This document shows positions 11,320 through 41,208 of a stretch of 57,745 nucleotides of DNA, piece by piece; the first letter of the stretch is position 1; each line of letters opens with the position of its first letter. The translations under genes and the position numbers were made by a program. Source of the DNA: Komagataeibacter xylinus (GTDB lineage Bacteria; Pseudomonadota; Alphaproteobacteria; Acetobacterales; Acetobacteraceae); contig NZ_QQBI01000020.1 in assembly GCF_004302915.1 (NCBI RefSeq), positions 1-57,745 on the forward strand, given 5' to 3'. The notes under the pieces were generated by a model, which was not told the DNA's origin, did not search any database, and worked only from the letters and a program-made list of their open reading frames with translations.

Positions 11320-11363
11320 AAAAAAAGCCAGCCACACCGGGAAAGCGTTCCGGTGTGGCTGGC
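11320..11363 (-). terminator. intrinsic terminator for the 11390-11797 gene
   Basis: A perfect 14-bp stem (11327-11340 with 11350-11363) around a 9-nt loop. On the minus strand it is followed by seven T residues (11326-11320), the classic Rho-independent arrangement, 27 bp after the minus-strand stop. Confidence 0.88.
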
Positions 11364-37685: not shown

Positions 37686-39173
37686 ATGACCCTCTATCAG
37701 TCCGGGCAGCTCAACACCAACAGCCTGAACGTGCCGGATCTGTATGTGCAGATCCTCAAACCGCAGACCCTGGCACTTAACGGCGTGGCAACCGGGCAGA
37801 TCGGCCTGGTGGGCACGGCGGCGTGGGGGCCGGTGGGGGCACCGGTCATCATCGGCAGCATGGGAGACTGCCTGGGCGCATTTGGCCCCAAGCAGGCGCA
37901 GGCAAACGATATCGGCACGGCGGTGAACATCGCCATCATGCAGGGTGCATCCGATTTCCGCTGCGTGCGGGTGAGTGATGGCACCGATGTCGCGGCCACG
38001 GGCACGCTGGCAGGGGTAAGCCTGAGTGCCATCCATACGGGCAGCGCGGGCAACGTCCTTGTGGCGACACTGGCGCAGGATCCCATCATTACCACGAATT
38101 ACGCGCTTACGGTCAGTCATGCAGTGCTGGGCAGCCGCACCTATCGCGGCGCGACATGGCCGGTCCTTGCCGCCGCCGTCGCAGCCGATGGCGCGGCACT
38201 TGTGCGCGTAACCGTGCCGACGACAGCGCCCGCGCCCGAAGCCGGTTCGACAACGCTTGCGGGTGGCAGCGATGGTGGCATGCCCACCACTGCGCAGTTC
38301 CTGGGCACGGATGGCACGAGCCGCACCGGCATGTATGCCCTGCGCGGGCAGGGCTGTGCGGTCGGGCTGCTGCATGGCGTGGTGGATAATACGTCATGGA
38401 CCACGCAGGCCGCTTTTGGCCTGGGGGAAGGGATGTACATGATTGCCTGCGGCCCGGCAGGCGACACGATTGCCAATGCGGTGGCCATGAAAAACGCCGC
38501 AGGGCTGGACAGCTACGCCGTCAAGCTGATGTTTGGTGACTGGCTGTGGTGGGATGATGACACCAATGGCGACATGCTGGTGCCCCCGCAGGCCTTTGCC
38601 GCGGGTATTTTTGGCGGCCTCTCGCCCGAGCAGTCGAGCCTGAACAAGGAACTGTATGGCGTAATCGGCAGCCAGAAAGCAGGGCTGGCCAGCAGCGGGC
38701 AGGCCGCGACCTATTCCGGCGCAGAACTGTCGGCCCTGTTTGCGGCAGGCATCGACGTGATCTGCAACCCCGCACCCGGTGGCAGCTACTGGGCGGTGCG
38801 CGGCGGCATCAATACCGCGTCCGATGACGTGACGGATGATGACACCTATACGCGCCTGACCAACTACATTGCCGAAACGCTCAACACGGGCATGGGCGTA
38901 TTCGTGGGGGCTGTCATCTGCGCCACGCTGTATGGCGATATCCGTGCCGTGCTGCTGGGCACGCTGTCAAACATGGTGGGCAGCGGCATACTGGGTGCAA
39001 GCACGGATTACGCCGTGCTGTGCGATACGAGCAATAACCCCCAGTCGCGCATAGCGCTGGGTTATGTGCGCGCTGACGTGCAGGTGCGCTATCAGGGGAT
39101 CAACCGTTTTTTCGTGGTCAACCTGCAGGGTGGGGCAAGTGTTACGGTCAGCACCGCGACTGCGGCGGCCTGA
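37686..39173 (+). CDS. phage contractile tail sheath protein
   Basis: A 495-residue protein. Tail-sheath features include NVPDLYVQILKPQTLALNGVATGQIGLVGTAAWGPVGAPV near the N-terminus, a variable middle domain, and the C-terminal core (GVITATYGDIR-like segment VGAVICATLYGDIRAVLLGTLSNMVGSG; RIALGYVRADVQVRYQGINRFFVVNLQGG). It forms the outer contractile cylinder and defines the phage as a myovirus type. Followed by a terminator-like hairpin. Confidence 0.9.
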   Translation: MTLYQSGQLNTNSLNVPDLYVQILKPQTLALNGVATGQIGLVGTAAWGPVGAPVIIGSMGDCLGAFGPKQAQANDIGTAVNIAIMQGASDFRCVRVSDGTDVAATGTLAGVSLSAIHTGSAGNVLVATLAQDPIITTNYALTVSHAVLGSRTYRGATWPVLAAAVAADGAALVRVTVPTTAPAPEAGSTTLAGGSDGGMPTTAQFLGTDGTSRTGMYALRGQGCAVGLLHGVVDNTSWTTQAAFGLGEGMYMIACGPAGDTIANAVAMKNAAGLDSYAVKLMFGDWLWWDDDTNGDMLVPPQAFAAGIFGGLSPEQSSLNKELYGVIGSQKAGLASSGQAATYSGAELSALFAAGIDVICNPAPGGSYWAVRGGINTASDDVTDDDTYTRLTNYIAETLNTGMGVFVGAVICATLYGDIRAVLLGTLSNMVGSGILGASTDYAVLCDTSNNPQSRIALGYVRADVQVRYQGINRFFVVNLQGGASVTVSTATAAA

Positions 39174-39227
39174 CCCGGAAACTGTTATTTTTCGAAACCG
39201 CCATCATCGCTGCGCAATACTTCACGA

Positions 39228-39250
39228 GCCACCTTTCGGGTGGCTTTTTT
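39228..39250 (+). terminator. terminator-like hairpin between sheath and tube genes
   Basis: GCCACC (39228-39233) pairs with GGTGGC (39239-39244), then T6. The tube start codon is only 14 bp past the T run. Confidence 0.78.
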
Positions 39251-39263
39251 CATGGAGCCATGA

Positions 39264-39695
39264 ATGTCCCTCAAACCTTTCAATATCGGCCGCGACTGCC
39301 GCGTGGTGCTGGTCTATAATGGCAGCCGCATCGACCTGCCCACGGTTACGGGCTTCAATGCGGCCCAGCGCACCCATCAGCTGGAATCAAACCCGCTGAA
39401 CGACATGCCCCTGTTCTATGACGTGCCAGGTGGCTGGGGCGGCCAGTTTTCCTTCCAGCGCGACAGTTCGGGGGCCGATGACCTGTTTGCCGCGATCGAG
39501 AGCGGGTTCTGGTCGGCCGGCACGGTCATTCTGGGCAGCATCTACCAGTATGTGACCGAATGCGACGGCTCGCTGAGCACATACGAGTTCATCGGCGCAT
39601 CCCTCAAGCTGTCGGATGCTGGGCGCTACCAGTCCGAAACGCTGGTCACGCAGACCATCACGTTCACGGCCCGCGCCCGTAACCGCATTTCCTGA
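39264..39695 (+). CDS. phage tail tube protein
   Basis: A 143-residue protein immediately after the sheath, with the size and beta-rich content of a myovirus tail tube (NIGRDCRVVLVYNGSRIDLPTVTGF, GGWGGQFSFQRDSSGADDLF, YEFIGASLKLSDAGRYQ). It forms the inner tube through which DNA passes. GGAG precedes the start, which immediately follows a terminator hairpin. Confidence 0.85.
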   Translation: MSLKPFNIGRDCRVVLVYNGSRIDLPTVTGFNAAQRTHQLESNPLNDMPLFYDVPGGWGGQFSFQRDSSGADDLFAAIESGFWSAGTVILGSIYQYVTECDGSLSTYEFIGASLKLSDAGRYQSETLVTQTITFTARARNRIS

Positions 39696-39717
39696 CCCCC
39701 AGCCGGAAAACGCCGAC

Positions 39718-40029
39718 ATGACGGAAAAAACCGTAAAGACCCCTGATGGCCGCGCCCTGAGCTACCGCGAGCGCGGGCCGGGCGATGTGCTCGCCCTGCT
39801 TGAGTTCGGGCCGGATGCGCCCTCGACCGCGTGGCTGGAATACGCGCTCATGGTCAGTTCGGTCGAGGCGATCGACGGCGTGCCCGTCATCCGCCCGCAA
39901 ACGCGCGTGCAGCTTGAACAGCTTGCCAACCAGATCGGCAATAACGGCATCGAGGCGCTCAGCATGGCCCTGTTTGGCCCCGATGCGCAGGCCACGCCTG
40001 ATGCAGAGGCCCAAGCCGCAAAAAACTGA
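39718..40029 (+). CDS. phage tail assembly chaperone, short (0-frame) product
   Basis: A 103-residue protein beginning MTEKTVKTPDGRALSYRERGPGDVLALLEFG, with the position of a tail assembly chaperone between tube and tape measure. The last codons read GCA AAA AAC TGA: a slippery A AAA AAC heptamer at the very stop. A stem-loop follows at 40032-40082. This is the arrangement used to make a longer -1 frameshift product (next entry), equivalent to lambda gpG and gpGT. Confidence 0.82.
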   Translation: MTEKTVKTPDGRALSYRERGPGDVLALLEFGPDAPSTAWLEYALMVSSVEAIDGVPVIRPQTRVQLEQLANQIGNNGIEALSMALFGPDAQATPDAEAQAAKN

Positions 40030-40082
40030 GCCGGCACCCCGTGCTGATCGAAGTGGCGGCGCTGGTCGGGCACGGGGTGCCG
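40020..40082 (+). promoter_or_regulatory. programmed -1 ribosomal frameshift signal
   Basis: Slippery heptamer A AAA AAC at 40020-40026, in the correct phase, is followed by a TGA stop, a 5-nt spacer (40027-40031) and a perfect 13-bp stem (40032-40044 with 40070-40082; CGGCACCCCGTGC and its complement) around a 25-nt loop. Spacing matches known -1 sites. Confidence 0.8.
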
Positions 40083-40202
40083 TGGGATGTGGCCATGTCC
40101 ATGCCGCGCGTGCGGCGCATGGCTTTTCTTGTCGCCTTCGGGGAGCTTGCCGGTGGTCGCTATGACTGGGGCACGCAACAATGGGAGTATCCTGATGGCT
40201 GA
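40026..40202 (+). CDS. tail assembly chaperone C-terminal extension, made by -1 frameshift
   Basis: In the -1 frame after A AAA AAC the sequence is open for 58 more residues (LSRHPVLIEVAALVGHG, VPWDVAMSMPRVRRMAFLVA, FGELAGGRYDWGTQQWEYPDG) up to TGA at 40200. The predicted fusion is 161 residues. Independent initiation at GTG 40041 is possible but has no evident ribosome site. The 3' end overlaps the next gene by 8 bp. Confidence 0.75.
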   Translation: MSRHPVLIEVAALVGHGVPWDVAMSMPRVRRMAFLVAFGELAGGRYDWGTQQWEYPDG

Positions 40203-41208
40203 ATCCTGTCAGGCCACGACACGGCTGGTCATGCGGCTTCAGGCCGCGCGGCCCGGAGGCCTGTCTGCTGCGGTGGCACGCCTGCCGGGGCGGGGCGGGC
40301 ACTTGGCAGGTGCCATCGCAAGGCTGGCTGCGGCGATGGGGCGCATGGGGCAGGCCATGACAGGGCCTGTCATGGCTGCCCGCTTTCGCCTGCCTGAACG
40401 CAGCCATAAGACCATCGCCCAGCATTTGCCAACCGAGCCGGGCAGGGCGCGTGACGCACGGGCAATACCGTCACATCAACCCGCCAGCCGCCGTGCCAGG
40501 GGCTGGCCCGGCCATGGTGACGAATACCGGCGCGGGGCAGGGCCAGCAGCCGTGAACAACCCTGCGCCCACCCCGGACAGGAACGGGCGGGATGGAAAAG
40601 GGCTTGCGCCCATGCCCTATGGCGCACGCATGATTGCACCCCTGGCGCACCTGCCAATGCCCTTGGCATCCAACGCCCGCCGGATACCGGCTGCTGCCCC
40701 CACCGGGGCTACGCAGCGGGGCAGCCCCCTAAGCCGCGCCATGCCTGCACCGTCCCGGCCCGGGCCTGCCCCCATGGCTGTTGCGGGGCGGGACCACACC
40801 GTGTCCATCCCTCCCATGGCGGGCTGGCAGGCCGTACCACACAGGCCGCGCTTGCTGAACGACAGGCCGAACAACAGTCATGGGGTGCGGCGCGGGGTAC
40901 TGCCTGCCAGCATGCCTGGCACGAGGAATGTCCTCCCGCCACATGCGCAACCCCGCAGGCAGGCGCGGCCGCCCTTCATCAGTCCTGCGCCCATGCTCCG
41001 TTCCCCCACGCCCGGCAGGACGGATCAGGCCATGTCTGCCGCGCCCATCATACAGGTCACCATTCCCGTGACACTGGACCAGCATAATGTGGGGCAGGCT
41101 GTCGCCCGCATGGAAACCGGCCGCGCCCTTCTTGAACATCGCGCCACCGGCACCGCGCCCGATGGCATGCAGCATGTGCAGCTACCCGGTCGCTCCGTGG
41201 GTATCTGA
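40195..41208 (+). CDS. putative short tail tape-measure protein
   Basis: A 337-residue protein starting inside the chaperone extension stop. The sequence is Pro/Arg/Ala-rich and low in helix-forming repeats, except for the C-terminal 50 residues (IIQVTIPVTLDQHNVGQAVARMETGRALLEHRA), which look like a real domain end. It occupies the tape-measure position after the chaperones, but is much shorter than usual myovirus tape measures and lacks the long hydrophobic helices. Predicted ruler length at ~0.15 nm per residue is about 50 nm. Confidence 0.6.
   Translation: MAESCQATTRLVMRLQAARPGGLSAAVARLPGRGGHLAGAIARLAAAMGRMGQAMTGPVMAARFRLPERSHKTIAQHLPTEPGRARDARAIPSHQPASRRARGWPGHGDEYRRGAGPAAVNNPAPTPDRNGRDGKGLAPMPYGARMIAPLAHLPMPLASNARRIPAAAPTGATQRGSPLSRAMPAPSRPGPAPMAVAGRDHTVSIPPMAGWQAVPHRPRLLNDRPNNSHGVRRGVLPASMPGTRNVLPPHAQPRRQARPPFISPAPMLRSPTPGRTDQAMSAAPIIQVTIPVTLDQHNVGQAVARMETGRALLEHRATGTAPDGMQHVQLPGRSVGI

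Follow-up and report, generated by a model that had tools for sequence, protein, structure and literature searches.

Background

The slip site of phage lambda is G_GGA_AAG, and P2 (E/E') and Mu (gp41/FS-gp41) are contractile-tail phages that carry a -1 extended chaperone, with TTTTTTG as the slip site of P2. Chaperone frameshifting in tailed phages is textbook knowledge, and the locus described here resembles lambda G/GT, in which a short chaperone and a longer -1 frameshift form are needed for tail assembly (PMC5009743). A site of the A_AAA_AAC type is far less shifty than A_AAA_AAG in E. coli according to the same source (PMC5009743), in agreement with what the first-pass annotation of this DNA had stated. 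For phages of acetic acid bacteria, the main text of one paper uses none of the terms frameshift, chaperone, sheath and tape measure (PMC8566455), and titles and abstract openings on tail frameshifts in Acetobacteraceae and on slippery phage sites adjacent to a stop do not report the present site.

Slip site, stop and reading frames

The site lies in the window, the whole 57,745-nucleotide stretch of DNA that was analysed, and comprises the following features.

39718..40029, + strand: candidate tail assembly chaperone ORF in the 0 frame, 103 aa (translation; phrog_20383 match)
40020..40026, + strand: slippery heptamer A AAA AAC, read directly from the sequence and in phase with the 0-frame ORF
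40027..40029, + strand: 0-frame stop TGA, directly adjoining the heptamer
40026..40202, + strand: -1-frame extension, 58 codons plus TGA at 40200-40202 (translation)
40032..40044, + strand: 5' arm of the putative stimulatory hairpin, perfectly complementary to the 3' arm (folding and conservation tests)
40070..40082, + strand: 3' arm of the putative stimulatory hairpin, perfectly complementary to the 5' arm (folding and conservation tests)

Direct reading of the sequence upholds the phased heptamer with TGA immediately behind it that the first-pass annotation had described, and the site has the X XXY YYZ pattern, in phase, of a -1 programmed frameshift signal. Read from 40020, the -1 frame gives KK and 58 further residues before its TGA, so the predicted fusion has 161 aa; the 58 open codons claimed earlier are borne out by translation. 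The perfect 13-bp stem with a 25-nt loop was likewise found as claimed, starting 5 nt after the heptamer; the 5-nt spacer is correct if counted from the heptamer, but it includes the TGA, leaving only 2 nt between the stop and the stem.

The heptamer AAAAAAC alone is common in the window, occurring 20 times where shuffles would give 2.07. A phased XXXAAAN or XXXTTTN directly before the stop was found in 1 of the window's 562 stop-to-stop frames of at least 60 codons (284 on the + strand and 278 on the - strand), namely the 39718-40029 ORF. The combination of phased heptamer, direct stop and stem is rare, whereas the heptamer by itself is not. A second AAAAAAC near the start of the chaperone gene (39725-39731) is, by its coordinate, out of slippery phase. 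Stop-codon readthrough was considered and rejected, as the 0 frame meets another TGA five codons after the first.

Conservation of the slip site across Acetobacteraceae

Relatives were sought in 200 Acetobacteraceae genomes with a search model built from the extension alignment without its first 8 residues (A2), which found 91 places in 82 of the 200 genomes and in 48 of the 102 sampled genera. Ninety of these places, the window included, were read, the omitted one (G143:C5) being the weakest match. A phased heptamer is present in 89 of the 90 loci, the window being one of the 89, and only L136 is without it; this recovery is unbiased, since the model excludes the first 8 extension residues. 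The first scans for relatives had given AAAAAAC in 54 of 54 loci, a biased figure that was kept out of the main counts because one of the six search peptides covered the site. In the genome collection, the eleven sequences most closely related to the extension come from Komagataeibacter; a search of the wider class found relatives in 2 of 385 genomes, both Acetobacteraceae, and among 50,697 phage records only phiKX1 and phiKX2 match. Of the 82 positive genomes, 75 carry a single copy of this prophage type and 7 carry two or three.

Of the 89 heptamers, 44 are AAAAAAC and 42 GGGAAAC, while AAAAAAT, AAAAAAA and GGGAAAT occur once each, and the second slip codon is AAA in all 89 loci, against 26% of Lys codons nearby. 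A tree of heptamer types has 6 changes between AAA and GGG, although it is weak (15 of 86 inner branches well supported) and well-supported branches force only 1 of these changes; it suggests that the heptamer type has switched between AAA and GGG repeatedly.

The 0-frame stop directly follows the heptamer in 81 of the 89 loci, a distance of 0 nt that contrasts with the mean slip-site-to-stop distances of 26 nt (training phages) and 36 nt (Xu set) given by the PRFect authors (PMC10885494), and is absent in the remaining 8/89. All 75 loci that encode Leu-Ser at the stop position choose stop-creating codons, where about 22% would be expected from nearby codon use, the related loci being non-independent.

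The extension as part of a predicted longer protein

In the loop of the hairpin, ahead of any conserved start, it is the third positions of the -1 frame that vary most (1.54 bits against 1.00 and 0.76). None of the codons ATG, GTG and TTG occurs in -1-frame codons 2-17 in 28 of the 89 loci, and a start accompanied by a 5-nt Shine-Dalgarno motif occurs within codons 2-18 in 1/89. As judged from these patterns, the -1 frame is selected as protein-coding sequence and has no conserved start that belongs to it.

The phiKX1 record treats this region differently, annotating a separate hypothetical CDS of 180 nt with an ATG start inside the extension (L055:4025-4204), and a GTG at extension codon 19 in 88 of the 89 loci could also serve a reading in which the extension is a separate gene with an internal GTG or ATG start. 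That reading is very unlikely: the phiKX1 start codon is absent from the window, upstream starts and Shine-Dalgarno motifs are as scarce as the above counts indicate, the codons ahead of GTG-19 behave as -1-frame coding sequence, GTG-19 is itself explained by pairing in the stem, and a separate gene would leave the conservation of the heptamer and stop unexplained. The coding pattern, together with the scarcity of starts and Shine-Dalgarno motifs, is therefore evidence against a separate gene despite the phiKX1 annotation. Homologues that encode the extension as a separate gene with its own ribosome site, which the first-pass annotation had named as grounds for abandoning the frameshift, are not what the start and Shine-Dalgarno counts reveal.

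The hairpin is kept as RNA

RNA structure a few nucleotides past the heptamer, the downstream component of a -1 programmed frameshift signal, is present at the site. The RNA of 40027-40100 folds at -41.6 kcal/mol (z -2.76), with 2 of 200 shuffles as stable. Perfect 13-bp stems with loops of 10-45 nt number 2 in the window, the only other one being at 11327, and the same search in ten first-order Markov controls gave 0 in eight and 1 in two. Rfam models gave three matches in 39000-41000 (E 0.45-0.52), all far below the gathering score and none at the hairpin on the strand of the site, so that no known frameshift element was found there.

The GV residues of the 3' arm are at the identical codon in 89 of 89 loci, which fixes the spacing of the hairpin. 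Codon choice follows the pairing: the paired codon GGG is used in 86 of 88 loci against a nearby background of 28.5%, and the paired codon GTG in 87 of 88 against 50%. The Pro codon that comes next sits at the weak outer end of the stem, and its third base varies like background. The stem alignment (A4) covers 85 loci and omits L078, L142, L143 and L145 (4/89), whose stem is shifted or different; in it 85.9% of cells pair, a share that falls to 40-46% when the partners are slid. The observed pairing and covariation were reached by 0 of 500 shuffles on any of five measures, with the tool's own warning that kinship alone can give such an excess for some of the five, and RNAalifold predicts the family stem unprompted. 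Each of the core pairs (alignment columns 15-20 with 56-61) persists in no fewer than 82 of the 84 distinct rows, but the outermost pair is kept in 39/84 and the eleventh in 31/84, so the conserved stem is shorter than the 13 bp of the window. At L143:654-722 the heptamer and stop are present, but a different, shorter hairpin replaces the family stem. The first-pass annotation had held that the frameshift would be refuted if heptamer and stem were not conserved in homologues; in the loci read the heptamer stays in phase (89/90), and in the stem alignment the stem exceeds 500 of 500 shuffles in pairing and covariation.

Both arms of the stem encode conserved residues, which would be expected were the site a relic or neutral and the hairpin a mere by-product of an RHPV...GVPW protein motif, but this account is contradicted on several sides and is highly improbable. 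When the loci were redrawn with synonymous codons, 78 of 89 had no more than 5 versions in 100 that equalled the natural fold, and 64 of 89 had no more than 1 in 100; the codon choice at paired positions points the same way. Two stem pairs in L144 and one in L146 are changed on both sides with pairing kept, and L078, L142 and L145 keep the stem though the 5' arm is one base off in the -1 frame, the frame-shifted arm of L142 involving one A-to-G change. These two-sided changes and frame-shifted arms argue that the RNA is kept and not only the protein: comparison of the loci indicates a hairpin conserved at the RNA level, beyond protein coding.

Proposed mechanism

From the sequence of the site, its phase, its conservation, the selection on its RNA and the coding pattern of the -1 frame, we infer that this is very probably a working -1 programmed ribosomal frameshift signal that yields a short and a long tail assembly chaperone. 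Most ribosomes would stop at the TGA and release the 103-aa chaperone, while a minority, paused by the hairpin, would shift one base back at A AAA AAC and read 58 more codons to give the 161-aa chaperone. By analogy with lambda gpG/gpGT, the extra C-terminal domain of the 161-aa form may serve a separate step of tail assembly. Slippage itself, its efficiency, the chaperone function and the binding partners of each form belong to this model, as does a fixed ratio of the two chaperones, which slippage would set. Counting against the model are the 8 of 89 loci in which the stop is not direct, L136 without a heptamer, the different hairpin of L143, the low shiftiness of A_AAA_AAC beside A_AAA_AAG in E. 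coli (PMC5009743) and the reduced frameshifting seen when a stop was put behind the HIV slip site (PMC4373837).

Production of the fusion by transcriptional rather than ribosomal slippage, for which the six consecutive A of the window site might be suitable, is scarcely credible given that 43 of the 89 loci have GGGAAAN with three A only, that RNA polymerase slippage normally needs longer runs and that a fixed-spacing hairpin is a stimulator of ribosomal slippage.

Prophage setting and identity of the proteins

The genes on either side of the candidate chaperone include the following.

37686..39173, + strand: tail sheath (phrog_23, E 2.5e-48)
39264..39695, + strand: tail tube candidate, named from its position (phrog_12993, unknown function)
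40195..41208, + strand: short tape-measure candidate, 337 aa (C-terminal match to a phiKX1 protein)

The tail tube candidate shares 39% identity with its positional counterpart in L149. The C-terminal 62 aa of the tape-measure candidate are 42% identical (E 9e-8) to the C-terminus of a 742-aa protein of phiKX1, which is encoded downstream of the same slip site, and the candidate itself has no Pfam or PHROG match. It is short for a tape measure and rich in Pro (13.6%) and Arg (12.5%), and its start at 40195 overlaps the stop of the extension; at this position six close Komagataeibacter relatives have proteins of 341-464 aa, and phiKX1 has 171 + 742 aa. Further neighbours are a terminase (29055), portal (30541), scaffold (32027), major head protein (34036), baseplate J protein (44652) and tail fibre gene (46395), with bacterial genes flanking the phage region on both sides. 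The region is a sheathed-tail prophage, and the DNA in which it lies is Komagataeibacter-like.

The 103-aa ORF matches phrog_20383, a family of unknown function (E 3.1e-32). Neither part of the window protein has a Pfam match up to E 1 and the extension has no PHROG match up to E 1; among relatives, Pfam and PHROG matches are weak and by single members only, leaving both parts outside any named family of these two collections. The lambda GpG family Phage_TAC_2 (PF06894) does not match the window protein up to E 1 and is not in G000; Phage_TAC_4 (PF08748) also gave no match to the window protein, was not found in G000 and is missing from the 14 families to which one or more of the 80 rows of alignment A5 had a match (the window plus a selection of 79 available loci, with L045, L038 and L039 dropped).

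AlphaFold models are confident for the 103-aa protein (pLDDT 87.7) and very confident for the extension (pLDDT 93.0), which is predicted to form three helices and a short strand pair. A fold search of the PDB with the 103-aa model gave nothing significant, the chaperone-like YqbN (3klu) appearing at E 7 and TM 0.46, and a sequence search against solved structures gave nothing convincing. In a viral structure library the best match to the 103-aa model is an unnamed phage protein (E 5.5e-5, TM 0.68), followed at ranks 2-3 by two baseplate hub proteins (E 0.008 and 0.011), above the named tail assembly chaperones, which match weakly (E 0.03-0.5); the extension model matched nothing in this library at E 0.001 or better. 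The identification of the gene as a tail assembly chaperone, as in the first-pass annotation, agrees with its position after the sheath and before the tape-measure candidate and with the weakly chaperone-like predicted fold; based on position, the frameshift itself and this weak fold similarity, the label is probable but less firm than the frameshift.

The adjacent stop and the choice of AAC

The first-pass annotation had presented the adjacency of slip site and stop as part of a compact model site; the adjacency is present but not unique, being reported for Burkholderia phage KL1 (PMC3483164) and present in Phage_TAC_4 genes. Of 136 distinct viral loci of the latter, 135 have AAAAAAC or GGGAAAC with the stop immediately behind it (65/65, 69/70 and 1/1); they derive from 160 fetched loci, the 80 top-ranked of 151 relatives and the 80 top-ranked of 119, plus one more, with identical loci merged and many still near-copies. 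The stop adjoins the heptamer in 8 of 9 genome loci as well, the ninth having the heptamer 3 nt before the stop. These loci (L158-L166 and L167-L327) were found by searches that did not use the heptamer, and their -1 frame is open for 103-115 codons; the hairpin of the window family was not seen in folds of 19 of them inspected by eye. The lambda-type family PF06894 is present in 3 of 398 genomes, and L155 and L156, which score over its cut-off, have no phased XXXYYYZ in the stretch scanned.

It is conceivable, though we consider it unlikely, that [AAA/GGG]AAAC with an adjacent stop forms a distinct, recurrent class of site across unrelated chaperone families, in which the stop is a working part and release factor 2 (RF2) competes with slippage and so sets the ratio. 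During slippage the E site would then be occupied by Lys- or Gly-tRNA and the P site by Asn-tRNA, with the stop in the A site. When the HIV slip sequence was tried in bacteria in the absence of its hairpin, an adjacent stop lowered slippage and extra RF2 abolished it (PMC4373837); by analogy, competition from release factor may set the chaperone ratio at the window site. With so well conserved a stop beside an AAC-type heptamer, the debated timing of slippage, before or after translocation, could be probed in bacteria at natural sites through changes in RF2.

A host tRNA-Lys(CUU) that would spoil AAG sites was considered as the reason for AAC, but the idea is unsupported in its simple form. 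Of the 82 positive genomes 60 were tested, and the tRNA-Lys(CUU) signature was read by eye in 56 of these, with confirmation by ARAGORN for the window's own genome only; the genomes without it (G002, G034, G039 and G114) are 82-91% complete. Of the nine Phage_TAC_4 hosts, none of them with ARAGORN confirmation, five show CUU, two show UUU-type matches only and in two (G791 and G838) the pattern gave no tRNA-like match. The two hosts with UUU only, G669 and G832, still carry AAAAAAC sites, so tRNA-Lys(CUU) is not the general reason.

Comparison with known systems

The frameshift signal appears real and is well supported, and it belongs to a known type of chaperone frameshifting. The comparison with lambda made by the first-pass annotation stands for the two-form scheme of the G/GT type and less so for the phage itself, as the window protein matches no Pfam family and the window phage has a tail sheath; because of the sheath, P2 and Mu are the nearer comparisons. 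Mu FS-gp41 is a weak structural match to the window chaperone model (E 5.3e-2), although no sequence family shared by P2 or Mu and the window protein was found.

Both heptamers of the window family serve chaperone frameshifting in Caulobacter phages, AAAAAAC in the phiCbK group and GGGAAAC in Colossus (PMC3556154); phiCbK is a siphophage. KL1 gp18/gp19 has GGGAAAC immediately upstream of TGA, but its products are longer (142 and 264 aa) and it is a siphovirus (PMC3483164). A stop directly behind the slip site is also known in Rous sarcoma and barley yellow dwarf viruses, which are eukaryotic RNA viruses with unrelated genes (PMC4373837). Phage_TAC_4 shares AAAAAAC or GGGAAAC directly before the stop but is another protein family; an adjacent stop and an AAC-type heptamer thus occur in two chaperone families without Pfam sequence similarity. 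Beside these systems, the present locus offers a likely function and expression mechanism for a protein pair that has no name and occurs in 48 of the 102 Acetobacteraceae genera sampled, the extension of which is annotated as a separate gene in phiKX1.
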